Positions 6,902 to 15,295 of a stretch of 64,000 nt of DNA are shown here, piece after piece. Position 1 is the first letter of the stretch. Each line of letters begins with the position of its first letter. The translations under genes and the position numbers were made by a program. The stretch is from NCBI RefSeq assembly GCF_002214365.1, contig NZ_CP014854.1, forward strand, positions 558,001 through 622,000, in the 5' to 3' direction. The notes beneath the pieces are model-generated. The model was not told the origin of the DNA. It did not search any database and worked only from the letters and a program-made list of their open reading frames with translations. Source of the stretch: Thermococcus celer Vu 13 = JCM 8558. GTDB lineage: Archaea; Methanobacteriota_B; Thermococci; Thermococcales; Thermococcaceae.

Positions 6902-6917
6902 ACCTTTTTTCATTTTC
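6902..6917 (+). terminator. T-rich terminator after mtnA
   Basis: Right after the mtnA stop the sequence reads AACCTTTTTTCATTTT (6902-6917), the oligo-T pattern typical of archaeal termination. It overlaps the last codons of the convergent acetyltransferase gene. Confidence 0.45.
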
Positions 6918-7437
6918 CCTGCGAGTCTTTTTCCCGAGCCTGCAGGGGTTTTTCAAGGATTAATGCCCTCTTCCGGTACCCTCTCTTCAGGTACCACGTG
7001 AGAAACGGGTTGCCGAGTTCCACACGCAGGGAGACCTTTCTGGCGCCCTCCAACCTCGCCCACTCCTCCGCCCGTTCGAGGAGGGCAGATCCTATTCCGA
7101 CCCCCTGTACCAGGGTCTCTATGTCGAGGACGTAGGCAGTCGGCACGAAGTCAACCGCGTCCTCGGTGATGCGAACCCACACGTGGCCGAGGTAGCGGTC
7201 GTACCGGTCGACGGCGACGAAGAACTTGTGAACCCCAAAGGAGAAGAGGTTGTTCACCACCCGCGAGTAGGCCGCTTTGTATTCCTCCTCCGTGAGCTCA
7301 CTCCGGGCGAAGCCCCTGCTGATATCCCTGTCGTGTTCGAATATCTCATCGAGGTAAGGCTCACCGTCAACCACCCTGAAGTCCCTCGCGGTCTCCTCAA
7401 CGGGGGGAAGTCGATTCTTATAACTCCGGCGGAACAT
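6910..7437 (-). CDS. GNAT-family N-acetyltransferase
   Basis: 175 residues. The C-terminal half has the GNAT core: YLGHVWVRITEDAV (beta4), the acetyl-CoA loop LVQGVGIGSALLERAEEWAR (the Q/RxxGxG/A motif as QGVGIG) and VSLRVELGNPFLTWYLKRGY. Substrate is not predictable. Its start overlaps the upstream PP-loop gene by 20 nt, so it is the last gene of the leftward four-gene operon that begins at 10890, and may act on the same product or on a protein partner. Confidence 0.85.
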   Translation of the reverse strand: MFRRSYKNRLPPVEETARDFRVVDGEPYLDEIFEHDRDISRGFARSELTEEEYKAAYSRVVNNLFSFGVHKFFVAVDRYDRYLGHVWVRITEDAVDFVPTAYVLDIETLVQGVGIGSALLERAEEWARLEGARKVSLRVELGNPFLTWYLKRGYRKRALILEKPLQAREKDSQGK

Positions 7438-8869
7438 CCCCCAGTGCCTCCTCGCGCGTTATCCTGATCCACCTATCACCCTTCAGGTAGACGTAACCCT
7501 TCGTGTACCCCTCGAAGATAGAGTAGAGTGCTCCCCTGAACCGCGGGGGAACGTTATCGATGTGGGAGTTCTTCCCATCGAAGTGGATCATCTCGACGTG
7601 CCAGTGGGGCTTTCCCTTGAGCGGAAATTCGGGGAAGTTGCGCTTTATGAGGTGGAGCGAGTGCTCAAGTTCATCCCTGTCGAGGCGGACGAGTCCCTTC
7701 CTCAGCCTATCGGGCAGGGTTGACACGTGCCAGTCCCTGTAACCTATGAGCCCCAGGTCTATCCCGTTGGCGAGGAGGAAGGTCATGATCCCATTGCACT
7801 TGAAGCAGGTCCCGCATGGCAGGTAATCATCTCCCTCTTTATGGACGGAGTGGCAGCTCCTCTGGAGGCGGAAGAGATGGGGGTAGCGGTCATGGAGGAT
7901 CCTCTCGACTATTAGGCCTGTCAGGGGCCTGACGGCGGACCACTGCCTGACTTTGAGTCCCCTCTCGTTGAACCACCGGGTCATGTACTTCTCGAAGTCC
8001 TGGCTCTGGTCGTAGGTGGCGTTGTAGTGCTCTATCCCGTGGAACGGAGCGTACCCCCTGGGATCGTCGTACTCGTTGCCGAAGAGGACGTTTCCGATGC
8101 CGTACTTGTAGATCAGAGGCAGGAAGGCGAAGGCGTACCCCTCAAAGAAGAAGAGCCTTATAGGATAGACCTCCGACTTCCGCTTCCCAACCCCCCTGAG
8201 GATCCTCATGTTGCGCTCTATGAAGCTGTAGAGCCTGTCCACGTTGCTCCAGACCCTTTTAGTGTTCGGTTCGTTCTCTTTGAACCATCTGTAGGCAGGA
8301 ATCGCCACGTGCCAGTGGGCGCCTGACTCGTTGTAGAAGAGGGGATAGACATCATTGCCGAGCTCCTTCATGAGCCCGTAGGTTAAGAGGCTCTCCTTCC
8401 CGCCGCTCAGCATGACGGCGGAGCTTGAAGGGTCTGGCTCAAGATCGAGCCCCTCCTCCTCAACCCCGAGGGGGACGAGCTCCGCCATCGGCTCGGCCAT
8501 CCCGGGACTTAAGCTCTTTGGCACAACCTCGGGCCTTACGAACTCGCTCGGGTTCGCGATCCTGTTAACGAAGATGTCCTTAGCCGTCACCTCCATCATG
8601 TCGCGGAAGAACCTCATGTCACGCGGGTCGAGGGTGAAGTCGAACCTTATCTCCGGGGTGAAGAGGCCGTAGTTTATCGCCGGGACGATGCTCATCAGCT
8701 TCGCGAACGCTTCAATCCTCGGAATTCTCTCCTCGTAGGTATGCATTAGCTTGTAGGCGCGTTCTTCTCCATCGATTCCGAGGACGTAGCGGGCCGAGAT
8801 CCTCCTCGATGAAATTTTCGGGCGTTCGATGAGGAGATAGTCAAAGCACCTCAGCTCTGGAAGGCTCAA
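7418..8869 (-). CDS. PP-loop ATPase-like protein of unknown function
   Basis: 483 residues. A PP-loop SGGKES (155-160) marks an N-type ATP pyrophosphatase fold, as in enzymes that adenylate a carboxyl, carbonyl or nucleic-acid carbon (QueC, NAD synthase and asparagine synthetase superfamily). Two clustered cysteine pairs appear later (CGTCFKCNG), likely a metal site, with many aromatic and His residues around them (CHSVHKEGDD, DWHVS, PHWHVEMIHFDG). The N-terminal 150 residues match nothing I know. It overlaps the DUF1611 gene by 29 nt and the GNAT gene by 20 nt, which implies translational coupling. Enzyme activity is unassigned. Confidence 0.75.
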   Translation of the reverse strand: MSLPELRCFDYLLIERPKISSRRISARYVLGIDGEERAYKLMHTYEERIPRIEAFAKLMSIVPAINYGLFTPEIRFDFTLDPRDMRFFRDMMEVTAKDIFVNRIANPSEFVRPEVVPKSLSPGMAEPMAELVPLGVEEEGLDLEPDPSSSAVMLSGGKESLLTYGLMKELGNDVYPLFYNESGAHWHVAIPAYRWFKENEPNTKRVWSNVDRLYSFIERNMRILRGVGKRKSEVYPIRLFFFEGYAFAFLPLIYKYGIGNVLFGNEYDDPRGYAPFHGIEHYNATYDQSQDFEKYMTRWFNERGLKVRQWSAVRPLTGLIVERILHDRYPHLFRLQRSCHSVHKEGDDYLPCGTCFKCNGIMTFLLANGIDLGLIGYRDWHVSTLPDRLRKGLVRLDRDELEHSLHLIKRNFPEFPLKGKPHWHVEMIHFDGKNSHIDNVPPRFRGALYSIFEGYTKGYVYLKGDRWIRITREEALGDVPPEL

Positions 8870-9935
8870 TGCCCTTCACCTCCACCCTGGATAGGAGCGC
8901 TATCCGCTTTGCAACGTCATCGAGTCCCTGAAGGAAGGGAACGCGGGTCATTATCCCAGTTTCGGCCTCTATCCTGCCGGCCCACTCGAGGGCATCCTCG
9001 TCGCTGAGCCCCTCGGAGTTTATGGTTATCGCAACGGGTTTTTTACCGCTCAGGAGCTGGATGAGCTCTACGTAGGTCTCGAGCGGTGGAATCGGAAAGT
9101 CCGGGAAGTCGTCGAAAGCTTTTCTCGCGGGGGCGTGCTGGAGGACCACGAAGTCCGGTCTCGCCGCGGCCATAAGGTCGAAACCGCCCGGAAACGCCGG
9201 ATGGAGGAGCGAGCCCTCACCGTGGGTCACTATAACATCGGGTCTTTCCTCGACCCATGCCCTGTAAAAGACGTCCTCTATGGCACCGGAAACGAAGTCG
9301 TCTATTATCGAGTCCGTCACTATCGCGTACTTGAAGCCCTGCATCCAACCCGTCTGGCCCATGGCTATGAAGACGCTCCTCAGGCCGAGCCTCCTGAAGG
9401 ACTCGTGGAGCATTATGGCGACGGTTCTCTTGCCGATGGCCGCGTCCGTGCCGAGAACCGCGACCTTGATCGCTTTTACGTCGTTTATCCTGCCCGTGAA
9501 AGGGATCCTCGTGTTGTAGAAGATCTTGCGGACGTCGATTATCCCAACGCCGTAGCGCCTCGCGAGGTGTTTCAGGTAGGGATCGTCGCTGAGGAAGTGG
9601 TGGAGTCCGTTCACAACGCCGAGACCGTTCCTTATCGCCTCGACCACCGTTTCCTTGTAGTCATCGGGAAGTTTTCCGCCCGGCGTTGCAACACCTATTA
9701 TGAGCCACTTCGCGTTGGGGTTCTCCGAGAGGGCCTCCTCGAGGGTGGCGTAAATCGGTATGCCCCTCCTTCTCCCGTCGAGGACCTCCCCGGCGTCGAG
9801 ACCCGCGAGCGTCGAGTCTATGACACCAACTATCCTGAATCTCTTCGAGTAGCGGACGAGGCCGTGGGCGGTCTTTCCGTCGGAGGTTTTGTAACGGCCC
9901 TCTGCGAGGATAAGGGCCTCATCCAACGTGAACAC
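8841..9935 (-). CDS. DUF1611 family protein (DgcN-like)
   Basis: 364 residues from the GTG at 9935 (ribosome binding site GGGGGTG); the frame is open to 9965. DUF1611 has an N-terminal Rossmann-like part (IVGVIDSTLAGLDAGEVLDG, WLIIGVATPGGKLP) and a C-terminal P-loop domain with VAVLGTDAAIGKRT (nucleotide loop at about 159-171), MGQTGWMQG and VTHGEGSLLHPAFPGG. A bacterial member, DgcN, has been reported as an N-acetyltransferase in D-glutamate breakdown working with a dipeptide-epimerase-like partner; no such epimerase lies next to this gene. Overlaps the PLP gene by 17 nt and the PP-loop gene by 29 nt. Confidence 0.85.
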   Translation of the reverse strand: MFTLDEALILAEGRYKTSDGKTAHGLVRYSKRFRIVGVIDSTLAGLDAGEVLDGRRRGIPIYATLEEALSENPNAKWLIIGVATPGGKLPDDYKETVVEAIRNGLGVVNGLHHFLSDDPYLKHLARRYGVGIIDVRKIFYNTRIPFTGRINDVKAIKVAVLGTDAAIGKRTVAIMLHESFRRLGLRSVFIAMGQTGWMQGFKYAIVTDSIIDDFVSGAIEDVFYRAWVEERPDVIVTHGEGSLLHPAFPGGFDLMAAARPDFVVLQHAPARKAFDDFPDFPIPPLETYVELIQLLSGKKPVAITINSEGLSDEDALEWAGRIEAETGIMTRVPFLQGLDDVAKRIALLSRVEVKGIEPSRAEVL

Positions 9936-10890
9936 CCCCTGTAACGACGAGGACGAACCTTCCATCCGTGATACCGAACTTCCGGACGAACTTCACCAGT
10001 CCTGCCAGAACCAGGGCCGAGGCTGGAAGCGGATTAATCCCTGCGGTCGAACGGAGCAACTCGGTGTATCTCAACGCCACGTCATCGGGGAAGCCAAAGA
10101 CGTAGCCGCGGGATTCCTTAATGGCCTCGAGGGCTTCCTCGGCATCGAAGGACCTCTCCGAAACGAGAGGCTCGTTGAAGACCGTCTCGGCGAAGTCCCC
10201 CTCCGATTCGCCGTAGAACCTCCTCAGGATCTCGTTTCCAAAGGCCGTGGTCACCCCCACCATGGTCGGTGTGATTCCCAGTCCCCTGAAGCCCTTCCAG
10301 AGCCCACTCAGGGTCGTTCCGTTGCCGAGGGGTACGAAAACCGCCGTCGGCCTCACCCGGGACGCTATCCCGACCGCCATGTCGGAGTAGGCTTTGAAGT
10401 CGACTTCCCTGTTGCTTCCGGGGTTGGCGTCGTAGAAGCCGGTAAGAAGGGCGAAGTGCCTGCTCGCCTCAACCGCGTCCTCGTAGCTTCCGGGAACCTC
10501 GACGACTTCGGCACCGAGGGACCTCATTTCTGGAAGCCTCGCGTTGGTGTAGCCCGCGGGAACGAATACCACAGCCCTTAACCCGTGAATCGCCGCGTGG
10601 TAAGCGATGGACGCGCCATAGTTCCCGCAGGTGCCGACGGTTATCCCGGAGAAACCTTCCTCAAGGGCCTTCTCAACGTGGGCCCTCGCGATCCTGTCCT
10701 TGTGGGTTCCGGTTGGGTTCCCCCCTTCGTAATCAACGTAGATCTCCCCCACCCCGAGGAGGTCCTCGAGGATGGGAACACGGAAGAGCTTTCCAAGGCC
10801 ACCCGGGGGCTCATCGGCCTCAGAGCCCTCAGCGTAGAGGCCTTTTTTGGACCTATACTCGACAGTCCGGATAGTTTTCACGGTTTCCAT
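9919..10890 (-). CDS. PLP-dependent threonine synthase-like enzyme
   Basis: 323 residues of fold type II (tryptophan synthase beta family). NPTGTHKDRIA contains the PLP lysine (about K64), TVGTCGNYGASIAYHAAIHGL is the substrate/PLP loop, VPLGNGTTLSGLWKGF the phosphate-binding glycine loop and VLVVTGGVHVG the C-terminal strand. It resembles threonine synthase but is shorter and sits with DUF1611 and PP-loop genes, so it may be a lyase, racemase or synthase acting on another amino acid. The TTG at 10938 lies in the TATA box; the ATG at 10890 is the start. First gene of the operon. Confidence 0.85.
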   Translation of the reverse strand: METVKTIRTVEYRSKKGLYAEGSEADEPPGGLGKLFRVPILEDLLGVGEIYVDYEGGNPTGTHKDRIARAHVEKALEEGFSGITVGTCGNYGASIAYHAAIHGLRAVVFVPAGYTNARLPEMRSLGAEVVEVPGSYEDAVEASRHFALLTGFYDANPGSNREVDFKAYSDMAVGIASRVRPTAVFVPLGNGTTLSGLWKGFRGLGITPTMVGVTTAFGNEILRRFYGESEGDFAETVFNEPLVSERSFDAEEALEAIKESRGYVFGFPDDVALRYTELLRSTAGINPLPASALVLAGLVKFVRKFGITDGRFVLVVTGGVHVG

Positions 10891-10935: not shown

Positions 10936-10952
10936 CAAAGGTATATAAACCT
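10936..10952 (-). promoter_or_regulatory. promoter of the PLP/DUF1611/PP-loop operon
   Basis: On the minus strand the sequence reads AAAGGTTTATATACCTTTG, a strong TATA box (TTTATATA). It lies 45-60 nt before the ATG at 10890, leaving a short leader with the purine-rich ribosome binding site GGGGGAAG. Confidence 0.6.
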
Positions 10953-11123
10953 TTCTATCGCGAGAACTGCTTAGCCTGTCTCTAAAGACGTTTTTTCGGC
11001 CTAACTATTTTTTCAGCCCATAAATTTTTTAGACAACCTAATTATTGCCGCGAAAATGGAAAAGAAAAGTTTTTAAACTATTATTCGACCATAGGGCGCC
11101 CCAGAAGGGGGCAGGTGATGGAG

Positions 11124-11330
11124 ATGTACCCACCGAAGAAGAAGGTACACCCCAAAGTCGGGGAGGAAGAGGAACTTGAGGAGGAGTTCGACCCACTCAG
11201 CGAAGTTGAGGTGGCCTACGAGGAAGACGAAGAGTGGGAAGAGGAGGAAGGGTGGGACATAGAGGAAGACGAGGAATGGATCCCCGACGAGGACGAGGAA
11301 GACTGGGACGTGGATGATGACGAGGAGTGA
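11124..11330 (+). CDS. small highly acidic protein of unknown function
   Basis: 68 residues. A short basic head (MYPPKKKVHPK) is followed by an almost unbroken run of Glu, Asp and Trp (EEEELEEEFDPLSEVEV, DEEWEEEEGWDIEEDEEW, DEEDWDVDDDEE). No cysteine, no membrane segment; very low pI. The ATG at 11124 follows AGGTGATG at the right distance; GTG 11115 and ATG 11118 are inside the ribosome binding site. A TATA-like TTTTTAAACTATT at about 11069-11081 supports transcription. The acidic, aromatic-dotted tail suggests a binding partner for a basic protein or metal, or a nucleic-acid mimic, but this is only a guess. Confidence 0.65.
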   Translation: MYPPKKKVHPKVGEEEELEEEFDPLSEVEVAYEEDEEWEEEEGWDIEEDEEWIPDEDEEDWDVDDDEE

Positions 11331-11394: not shown

Positions 11395-12687
11395 ATGGAG
11401 GACTTGAGGGGACATCCCCGGAAAAGAGAGAGGGCGGCGTTGAAGAGCATCGAAAAGGCCAAGCAGATGCGCCGTAGGCCCGATTCCGCCAGGTGGTTCT
11501 ATTCGTTCATCCCCTTCAAGGTATCAACGGGCGGAGCCGCTCCGCTGATACCCCTGCTCACGATGGCCCTCGGTGGCGGTCCGTCCGACGTTGGAATCGT
11601 AAACGCCATTGGAAGTACGGCTTCAATGCTCGGCGGTCTCTTCTGGGGGAAACTCAGCGATAAACTCAACAGGAGGAAGGTGTTTCTCATAGCAGGTTTC
11701 CTGGGGACGGCAATCTCAACCCTTCTGTTCCCCCTCGCCAGAAGTGTGTATCAGGTAATGGCCATCAACGCGGTGTACACCTTTTTCATAGCGGCGACGA
11801 TTCCACTACCCATCCTAATCATCACGAAGGCGTTTCGTCTTGAGGACTGGGACTGGGCGATAGGGCGCTTCAACGAGATAAGTGGATGGGCGTGGGTTGG
11901 GGGAATGGTGACAGGCCTTCTCCTCGGCCAGTTCCTGAGTCTAAGAGGGATATTCGTCTTTCTCGGGGTAATCGGATTGCTCTCGGTTCCTTACGGACTC
12001 CACACCATCAGGGAGGTTCCCCTCCACCTCAGCAGGGAAAAACTCGGTGTTTACACCGGCTACGTGGTGGAGAAGTTCCGCTACATCCCAAACATGATAA
12101 CCCACCTCCCGCGCTTTTCCACGGGTGGCTTTGGGGCCCTGTACCTTTCATCCCTGCTCTTCTGGGTGGGCGCGATGCTCTACTTCACCCAGTTTCCCGT
12201 TCTGCTGAAGGCAAGGGGATTCACCACCTCCGGGATTTACCTGATGAGCATCGGCAACTCCGCCGTCTCGGCGTTCATGTACACGAGGGTTGGAAAAAAG
12301 CTGAGAAACGGGAGCGGCTACGGGGTTCTCATCAGGGGCCTCCTATTACGTGCCCTTGCCTTCGCCCTCGTGCCCCTGGCCATACATCTGGATTCGATGT
12401 TCGGAGTTCTCACCTTCCTTTCCTACCTGCTCGCGGGATACACCTGGGCCTTCATAGGGATATCCACCACGTCCATTATATCGCGCGAGGCAAAACCAAA
12501 GGAGAGGGGTGCCCTCATAGGAACCTACAACATGGTCAGTTCGGTGGGTGCAATCCTCGGGAACTTCGCCAGCGGCTTCGTAACCCAATCCCTCGGGTTC
12601 TCCGCGGAATTTTCCCTGGCTTCCCTGCTCATCGTACTCTCGATAGTCCCACTCCTCTGCGAGAAGGTTAAAAGTCAGGGGGAGTAA
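11395..12687 (+). CDS. MFS transporter
   Basis: 430 residues with about 12 hydrophobic segments after a charged N-terminal arm of about 40 residues. The MFS loop 2-3 signature is seen as GGLFWGKLSDKLNRRKVFLIAGF, and a second-half equivalent around AKPKERGALIGTYNMVSSVGAILGN. Such proteins export drugs or metabolites or take up solutes by ion coupling; the substrate cannot be told. It is followed 18 nt later by the interrupted alcohol dehydrogenase gene, so the two may be cotranscribed. Confidence 0.85.
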   Translation: MEDLRGHPRKRERAALKSIEKAKQMRRRPDSARWFYSFIPFKVSTGGAAPLIPLLTMALGGGPSDVGIVNAIGSTASMLGGLFWGKLSDKLNRRKVFLIAGFLGTAISTLLFPLARSVYQVMAINAVYTFFIAATIPLPILIITKAFRLEDWDWAIGRFNEISGWAWVGGMVTGLLLGQFLSLRGIFVFLGVIGLLSVPYGLHTIREVPLHLSREKLGVYTGYVVEKFRYIPNMITHLPRFSTGGFGALYLSSLLFWVGAMLYFTQFPVLLKARGFTTSGIYLMSIGNSAVSAFMYTRVGKKLRNGSGYGVLIRGLLLRALAFALVPLAIHLDSMFGVLTFLSYLLAGYTWAFIGISTTSIISREAKPKERGALIGTYNMVSSVGAILGNFASGFVTQSLGFSAEFSLASLLIVLSIVPLLCEKVKSQGE

Positions 12688-13268
12688 CTTTAGGTGGTGA
12701 CGTGAATGTTCTGGCTGAAGACGAGGCTCGTTGAGGGGGAGGGGAGCCTGAGCCAGCTCTCCCGGGAGGCCGAAGGACACGAGCGCGTTCTCATACTCTC
12801 CAACAGCTCAATGAAGAGGCACGGTTTCCTGAGCGAGGCCGAGGACTACGTGGAGGATGCGGGCGCCGAGGTCCTCTCGATAGCCGGTCTCCCGGCGGAG
12901 CCGAGAGTCGAGGTCATAGAGGAGTTCCTGCCCAAGGTGCGCGAATTCGAGCCAGACCTGCTCGTGGCCATGGGTGGTGGAAGCGTCATCGACACGGCTA
13001 AGGCCCTGAAGGTCTTCTACGACGCCCCGGAACTGGAGTTTGAGAGGATAGCGTTCATCGACAGGTTCTCGAAGCCGGAGCCCGTCCCGAAGCTGAGGAC
13101 GGGGCTGATAGCCATACCCTCGACCAGCGGGGCTGGGAGCGAGGTGTCCGCCGCGAGCGTGCTGAAGAAGGGCTGTTTCTTGGTTGGTGGTTTTCGTAAC
13201 TTTTGTTGTCTTTCATCACCGCAAGGTTTAAATACTACAACTTAGTATTCCCTTGACGGGTGTTAGTA

Positions 13269-13433
13269 ATGCCTAAAGCGACTTTTGTCATCGACAGTGA
13301 GACGCTTGAAGAATTCAAAAGGCTGGCCAAAGAACGCTATGGGAACAAGAGGGGAGTCCTAAGCATTGCAGTTGAGGAAGCGATAAAAGATTGGATTAAG
13401 AAAACAAGAAAGGAACTCGAAAATGCCGAATGA
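13269..13433 (+). CDS. small ribbon-helix-helix-like protein of the IS element
   Basis: 54 residues: MPKATFVIDSETLEEFKRLA followed by KERYGNKRGVLSIAVEEAI and a basic tail. A short beta strand followed by two helices is the ribbon-helix-helix outline found in small DNA-binding repressors. It overlaps tnpB by 11 nt (ATGCCGAATGA), so the two are translationally coupled. It probably binds element DNA or represses the element. A TATA-like TTTAAATA lies about 40 nt upstream (near 13227). Confidence 0.7.
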   Translation: MPKATFVIDSETLEEFKRLAKERYGNKRGVLSIAVEEAIKDWIKKTRKELENAE

Positions 13434-14565
13434 AACGATAAAACTCGCCGCAAAATTCAAGCTCAAAAACCCTCCAAACGGGTTAGACAACCTCATCCAG
13501 ACTTACCGTGAAATAGTGAACACCCTCATCGCTTACGCTCACGAGAACAACATCACAAGCTTCTACAGGCTGAAAAAAGAAACGTACAAAAGCCTTCGCA
13601 AAGAGTACCCGGAACTACCAAGCCACTACCTCTACACGGCCTGCCAGATGGCCGCGTGGATTTACAAGAGTTACAGGAAGAGGAAGAAGAAGGGAAAGGC
13701 AAAGGGGAGGCCAGTCTTCAGGAAGGAAGTCATAATGCTGGACGACCATCTCTTCAAGCTCGACCTCGACGGAAAGATAATAAAACTCTCCACTCCTAAC
13801 GGGAGGATTTCGCTGGAGTTTTATCCCGCAAGGTACCACGAGAAGTTCCGGGGCTGGAAGGTTGGGCAGGCCTGGTTGGTTAAAACCCCAAAAGGCGTCT
13901 TCGTGAACGTTGTCTTCTCCACGGAAGTTGAAGTTCAGGAACCAAAGTCTTTCGTCGGCGTTGACCTGAACGAGAACAACGTAACCTTAAGCCTTCCAGA
14001 TGGTGAATTCGTGCAAATCATCACTCACGAGCGGGAAGTTAGGACGGGTTATTACGTGAAGAGGAGGAGGATTCAGAGGAAGCTGAAGGCTGGAAAGAGG
14101 CGGGAGAAACTCCTCGAGAAGTATGGGGGAAGAGAAAAGAACCGGCTGAATGACCTTTATCACAAGGTGGCTAATAAGATCGTCGAGCTGGCGGAAGAAT
14201 ACGGTGGGATAGCTTTGGAGGACTTGACGAACATTCGGGATTCGATAAGGTATTCGGCTGAAATGAACGGGAGGCTTCACCGCTGGAGTTTTCGAAAGTT
14301 GCAGTCGATCATCGAGTACAAGGCGAAGTTGAGGGGTGTGAGTGTTGTTTTTGTTGACCCGGCTTACACTTCTTCCCGGTGCCCGGTATGTGGGGGAAAG
14401 TTAAGCCCGAATGGGTACCGGCGGGTGAAGTGTGAGTGCGGTTTTGAGGCGGATAGGGACGTTGTTGGTTCGTGGAATGTTCGTTTAAAAGCCTTGAAGA
14501 TGTGGGGAGTTTCCGTTCCCCGAAAGCCACTCGATGAAGATGGGAGGGTGGAAGGTTGGCCGTAA
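13423..14565 (+). CDS. tnpB: TnpB RNA-guided nuclease of IS200/IS605 element
   Basis: 380 residues, full length. The RuvC-like nuclease residues are in place: VGVDLNENNVTLSL (D181), GIALEDLTNIRDS (E266), FEADRDVVGSWN (D344/D346). The zinc finger is CPVCGGKL (320-323) and CECG (337-340). TnpB proteins are RNA-guided DNA nucleases that keep the element at its donor site, using an RNA made from the right end, and are ancestors of Cas12. Because all catalytic residues survive, the protein is probably active. The stop codon lies within the right-end hairpin. Confidence 0.95.
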   Translation: MPNETIKLAAKFKLKNPPNGLDNLIQTYREIVNTLIAYAHENNITSFYRLKKETYKSLRKEYPELPSHYLYTACQMAAWIYKSYRKRKKKGKAKGRPVFRKEVIMLDDHLFKLDLDGKIIKLSTPNGRISLEFYPARYHEKFRGWKVGQAWLVKTPKGVFVNVVFSTEVEVQEPKSFVGVDLNENNVTLSLPDGEFVQIITHEREVRTGYYVKRRRIQRKLKAGKRREKLLEKYGGREKNRLNDLYHKVANKIVELAEEYGGIALEDLTNIRDSIRYSAEMNGRLHRWSFRKLQSIIEYKAKLRGVSVVFVDPAYTSSRCPVCGGKLSPNGYRRVKCECGFEADRDVVGSWNVRLKALKMWGVSVPRKPLDEDGRVEGWP

Positions 14566-14592: not shown

Positions 14593-15295
14593 AGAACGGG
14601 ACGTCAAGTACAACGTAGTTACCCCGGAGATAGCGCCCGACGTAGCCATCCTCGACCCGAGGCTCCCGAGAACGATGCCGGCGGAGGTCGCGAGGAACTC
14701 GGGGCTGGACGTTCTCGTCCATGGAATCGAGGCCTACACTACCAAAGTTGCCGGCCCATTCAGTGATGCAATGGCGATTGGGGCGATAAAGACAGTCTAC
14801 CGCTGGCTTCCCCTTTCAGTTAAAGGCGACGGGGAGGCGAGGGCGAAGGTTCACTACGCGGCCACTATGGCCGGAATCGCCTTTCTCAACGCCCGCCTCG
14901 GCCTCTGCCACGCGATGAGCCATAAAGCGGCGTGGATAGGTCCTCACGGCCTTCTGAACGCGATACTCCTCCCCTACGTCATGGAGTTCAACATGAGGAG
15001 CGACTACGCGAGGAGGCGCTACGCGGAGATAGCGAGGGAGCTCGGCTTCCGGACGGCAAAGGACCTCCTCGAAGTTGTTAAGGAGCTCAACGAGATGCTA
15101 AACGTTCCAAAGCTGAACGAACTGGTGGATGAGGAAACCTTCTCCGAGAGGGTCGAGGCGATGGCGGAGAAGGCCTACCGCGACGGGCTCGTCGCCTTCA
15201 ACCCGATCGAGCCGACGCCCGAGGAGATAAGGGAGCTGTACCTGAGGGCTTACAGGGGAGAGTGAAGAAAGGAAGAAACGGGCGAAGGGCGAACC

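Follow-up and report, generated by a model that had tools for sequence, protein, structure and literature searches.

The DUF1611 protein DgcN acts with DgcA in the utilization of D-glutamate (PMC12363236, PMC10845958), and a module of DUF1611 plus an epimerase is already known. Among annotated plasmid loci, DUF1611 adjoins dgcA in some. On Haladaptatus plasmids it lies between two dipeptide epimerases near a D-aminoacylase, the four genes forming one run (L156:690-5569 and L157:615-5569), and a dipeptide epimerase lies near DUF1611 in one further locus. On Vibrio and Ruegeria plasmids it adjoins an alanine/ornithine-racemase-type gene in two-gene units (L088:4875-7159, L154:3393-6035 and L089:4875-7192), and the Vibrio unit is followed by gspS2. 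No epimerase was found beside DUF1611 in five other loci that we inspected.

A different solution to amino acid inversion is MurL, described as the first ATP-consuming epimerase (PMC8788868). It consumes one ATP, yields AMP and works from L to D only (PMC8788868, PMC5808125), and adenylation of the alpha-carboxylate has been proposed for it (PMC5808125, PMC8788868). Here we describe a four-gene block of Thermococcus celer in which features of both systems appear to meet. The window that we analyzed is a stretch of 64,000 nucleotides, part of a 1.87-Mb genome.

Layout, control region and conservation of the block

Four co-directional genes run on the minus strand from 10890 down to 6910. The first (9919..10890, ATG start) encodes a PLP-dependent fold type II enzyme, threonine-synthase-like and of the PRK06381 type, and the second (8841..9935, GTG start, alternative ATG at 9965) a DUF1611 protein related to DgcN. 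The third (7418..8869, TTG start with GGAGGTG upstream) encodes a 483-aa PP-loop protein of the QueC-like superfamily, which is a candidate ATP-dependent epimerase by MurL profile similarity, AlphaFold2/Foldseek comparison and motifs, and the fourth (6910..7437) a GNAT acetyltransferase. The PLP and DUF1611 genes overlap by 17 nt with the GTG start at 9935, or by 47 nt if DUF1611 starts at ATG 9965; the DUF1611 and PP-loop genes overlap by 29 nt and the PP-loop and GNAT genes by 20 nt. A first-pass annotation of this DNA had proposed four genes of this kind on one strand with overlaps of 17-29 nt, and we recovered the same overlaps and, by Pfam, NCBIfam and motif analysis, the same gene content.

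Since the genes overlap, there is no intergenic room for internal promoters within the block. Upstream of the ATG at 10890 we found a single putative archaeal BRE/TATA element, recognized by its consensus, at about 10939..10955 of the minus strand (AGAAAGGTTTATATACC), which reads AGAAAGG-TTTATATA and is conserved across 19 aligned loci from three genera. This agrees with the common promoter suggested in the first-pass annotation, and the four genes are probably co-transcribed as one unit.

The first-pass annotation had missed a small acidic ORF and an MFS transporter gene that share this control region. Both are divergent from the operon, from which a conserved stretch of about 170 bp separates them, and have their own TATA. 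Alignment of the 19 loci places a CCTAAC element, a TAAAAT-NN-TTAG dyad and the TATA of the opposite transcript (AAGTTTTTAAA) at 10990..11085. The dyad was too degenerate to serve as a search query for the operator of a known regulator, and a literature search on its regulator gave no lead. The acidic ORF (11118..11330, plus strand; 70 aa, MEMYPPKKKVHPK... followed by a W/D/E-rich tail) was present in the 19 aligned loci and had no match in Pfam or NCBIfam; its homologues combine a conserved YPPKKK head with a W/D/E repeat tail of variable length. The MFS gene (11395..12687, plus strand; MFS_1, 100 bits) adjoins the block in nearly all loci, and an ortholog is also found in seven genomes that lack the block. 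The acidic ORF is kept in four of these seven loci and is only 28 aa long in L054, where the MFS gene is lost and the operon is intact. Because it is kept without the operon and shortened where the MFS gene is lost, the acidic ORF tracks the MFS gene and not the operon.

Two other features of these neighborhoods were noted. In the genome G034 (L146:8600-8900), CRISPR-like direct repeats of ~30 nt with spacers lie directly upstream of the acidic ORF, in the place that the operon occupies in other genomes. In the window, a TnpB-like ORF (13423-14565) interrupts an alcohol-dehydrogenase-like gene, whose parts lie at 12706-13173 and 14603-15250 and share about 82% identity with an unbroken relative in L148.

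The PP-loop gene occurred in 27 of 94 Thermococcales genomes, where it was full-length in 21, cut by contig ends in two, broken in two (split in G026, with several stops and shifts in G028) and reduced to a short remnant in two, both of genus g3. DUF1611 was found in 24 of the 94, each with a PP-loop match and none without the PP-loop gene, and a PRK06381-type PLP enzyme above the family cut-off in 20, all at the block locus, counts that come from related genomes and are therefore not independent samples of co-occurrence. No intact copy of the block lacked the GNAT gene. Among 20 loci read, in three genera with differing flanks, all those of sufficient length showed an identical order, PLP-DUF1611-PP-loop-GNAT. 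The intact order is kept in about 20 Thermococcaceae genomes, and other genomes show the block decaying as a unit, as in G028; G089 has a degraded PLP gene beside the three other genes. Repeated loss of the whole block fits a dispensable but coherent pathway.

The suspicion that the genes might not be neighbors in any other genome did not hold, as they adjoin in other Thermococcaceae. The expected conservation of gene order beyond this genome was borne out within that family and in no other family among the 115 genomes of the phylum. Likewise, no relative of the PP-loop protein outside Thermococcaceae was found in viral contigs, plasmids or the 115 genomes of the GTDB phylum, and a genome-wide scan with a single PP-loop query sequence returned Thermococcaceae loci only. 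PADLOC gave no match of note that would favor a defense system, and our literature search found no paper describing this four-gene operon.

The PP-loop protein beside MurL and QueC

Neither Pfam nor NCBIfam gave a significant match for the PP-loop protein. In an alignment of 18 homologues, SGGKES and the cysteines C339, C352, C355 and C358 were invariant (C-x12-C-x2-C-x2-C), in keeping with the cysteine metal site predicted earlier, as was YPIR at 235-238. We compared its profile with that of MurL, using as references murL of Xanthomonas sacchari, which is annotated as such and adjoins murD, and three Pseudonocardia plasmid proteins. Hhalign aligned 184 co-linear columns at P 1.8e-4, and the alignment spanned the PP-loop, N-E, R-P-L-x-x-L and S-C...CxxCxxC in order. 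The score was 40.8, and none of 200 column shuffles reached it (mean 16.4, maximum 28.4). Against Thermococcales QueC, the score was 24.5 and 2/200 shuffles reached it, while MurL against QueC scored 36.8 and was reached by 0/200 shuffles. By these sequence profiles the three proteins look related, and the PP-loop protein appears nearer to MurL than to QueC in the shuffle-controlled test, although the alignments of all three are shallow. The N-terminal domain resembled that of MurL by eye, but its match was not significant.

The AlphaFold2 model of the PP-loop protein (pLDDT 84.9) matched QatC, QueC and Cap9 best in a Foldseek search of the PDB. Searches of PDB sequences with the PP-loop or MurL profile returned no relative, and there seems to be no solved MurL structure. 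The overall fold and the Cys4 site are thus shared with the QueC/QatC/Cap9 family (PF06508). However, the Pfam QueC profile gave no match even at E 10, the protein has SGGKES in place of SGGxDS and C-x12 in place of the C-x8-CxxCxxC spacing of QueC, and no qat or CBASS genes lie near the block.

The likeness to MurL comprises the PP-loop, N-E, R-P-L and Cys4 motifs, with SGGxxS and S-C...CxxCxxC among them, in the same order, and a similar length (451 aa in MurL). The differences are a core identity of ~22%, a block without MurD2 and a host without peptidoglycan. We did not file the protein as MurL because no MurD2 or other Mur ligase is encoded in the block or its neighbors. The MurL-like genes on the Pseudonocardia plasmids (L085, L086 and L087:2551-3950) also have no MurD neighbor and may differ from MurL in function; each faces a large WD40-type or hypothetical gene.

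The DUF1611, PLP and GNAT proteins

Both DUF1611 domains were recognized by Pfam (DUF1611_C, 198 bits; DUF1611_N, 105 bits), forming a Rossmann-like N domain and a P-loop C domain with GTDAAIGKRT, and the PDB relatives were 2g0t, 2obn and 7xrj. Against the NCBIfam DgcN equivalog, the protein scored 148.7 bits, below the cut-off of 480, and it does not belong to DgcN by this model. Like the DgcN/DgcA system, the locus has both DUF1611 domains, the P-loop GTDxxxGK and, as a candidate, an epimerase-type neighbor; in contrast to that system, an unrelated PP-loop enzyme takes the place of DgcA, the enolase-superfamily epimerase that is absent from the window locus, and PLP and GNAT genes are added. 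The closest DUF1611 proteins that we found (about 41% identity) were of the racemase-linked type from the Vibrio and Ruegeria pairs, where the gene likewise adjoins a racemase, although that racemase has the alanine-racemase fold and the PP-loop, PLP fold II and GNAT genes are missing. The D-amino acid link of DUF1611 raised in the first-pass annotation is supported by the DgcN papers and by the dgcA, epimerase and racemase neighbors. Its statement that an epimerase partner is lacking is probably mistaken, as MurL, an ATP-dependent epimerase, is what the PP-loop protein resembles most. Because DUF1611 homologues elsewhere often neighbor an epimerase or racemase, the PP-loop protein is probably this missing epimerase, and it is likely, if not certain, that it fills the epimerase slot beside DUF1611.

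The PLP enzyme matched Pfam PALP with 180 bits and passed the NCBIfam PRK06381 threonine synthase model (NF004996) with 358 bits against a cut-off of 266, the activity being predicted. In Thermococcales, enzymes of this type are found only with the operon. The genome can do without it as a housekeeping threonine synthase, since another of its proteins passes the TIGR00260 thrC model. The GNAT protein (Pfam Acetyltransf_1, 32 bits) is a close relative of the uncharacterized solved structure 1vkc.

A possible inversion pathway and its alternatives

We tentatively favor, at somewhat less than even confidence, the reading that the four genes encode a pathway that inverts an N-acyl amino acid, or else a short peptide. 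Gene content and order, co-occurrence, the promoter element, the protein families and the remote MurL similarity are its observed basis, from which we infer enzyme activities, substrate, direction and export. The PLP enzyme would supply the pathway by making or remodeling an amino acid. Its amino group would then be blocked by acetylation, through DUF1611 as a DgcN-like D-amino-acid N-acetyltransferase, through the GNAT protein, or through both. The PP-loop protein could adenylate the free alpha-carboxylate with ATP, releasing AMP and PPi, and adenylation would acidify the alpha-carbon, leading to one-way L-to-D inversion and then hydrolysis, the course proposed for MurL. Export of the product may fall to the MFS transporter, a guess based on where its divergent gene lies and on its likeness to drug exporters. 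Several observations count against inversion: the MurL similarity is remote and confined to the PP-loop core, the five DUF1611 loci mentioned above lack an epimerase, the DUF1611 protein falls below the DgcN cut-off, Foldseek ranks QatC and QueC, the block has no MurD2 homologue, and the substrate of MurL is a peptidoglycan precursor, which archaea lack.

The Foldseek ranking of QatC and QueC makes amidation or protein conjugation possible for the PP-loop protein, and it could instead be an ATP-dependent enzyme that, in the manner of QueC, amidates or ligates, with the operon making the amide of an acetylated amino acid, or a small peptide, and no D-amino acid. The invariant YPIR resembles the QueC VPxRN motif (PMC13329287) and the C-x12-C-x2-C-x2-C site is QueC-like, but the weak QueC profile match, attained by 2 of 200 shuffles, the lack of a Pfam QueC match and a DUF1611 context that points to stereochemistry lead us to regard amidation or ligation as rather doubtful. 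That same context, through the role of the DgcN family in D-Glu utilization (PMC12363236, PMC10845958), could also suit catabolic scavenging resembling DgcN-DgcA, in which DUF1611 would N-acetylate a D-amino acid entering the cell, another enzyme would invert it, the product would be deacetylated and consumed, and the MFS protein would act as importer. Patchy presence and repeated loss suit such a dispensable trait. However, MurL-type inversion runs from L to D only, no deacylase is encoded in the block and drug-exporter models give the MFS protein its highest scores, making scavenging unlikely.

Lastly, the acidic ORF, with its YPPKKK head and variable W/D/E tail, faces the operon over the control region that they share and adjoins the exporter-like MFS gene, as might a RiPP precursor that the four enzymes modify and the MFS protein exports. 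We dropped this as the leading explanation because the pair of acidic ORF and MFS gene persists in four genomes without the operon, whereas a RiPP precursor would be kept with its maturation genes; for the same reason, it is improbable that the acidic protein serves as a peptide substrate. The truncated ORF beside the intact operon of L054 and a C-terminal residue that varies (E, D, W, Y, H) further argue against a precursor, and we consider a RiPP system improbable. Pathways other than inversion, amidation, scavenging and RiPP maturation take up the remaining probability.

Returning to the inversion pathway that we favor, the first-pass view of an uncharacterized pathway is supported, and the gene set is real, conserved and probably co-transcribed. 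More specifically, an archaeal ATP-consuming one-way epimerase of MurL ancestry might replace the enolase-type racemase beside DUF1611 and so irreversibly give D-amino acids, or their N-acetyl forms, in a cell without peptidoglycan, a proposal that we put forward as possible yet on balance unlikely. In the literature that we searched, we found no description of a MurL-like ATP-dependent candidate in the epimerase slot, accompanied in archaea by PLP and GNAT genes. The mechanism of MurL is unsolved, and a heat-stable relative from archaea, encoded in a compact operon, would be a tractable protein on which to study this chemistry. Such a reading would give a PP-loop family that is still unclassified a role, and DUF1611 proteins one beyond D-glutamate, and an archaeal relative of MurL would suggest that ATP-driven epimerization is not limited to peptidoglycan.
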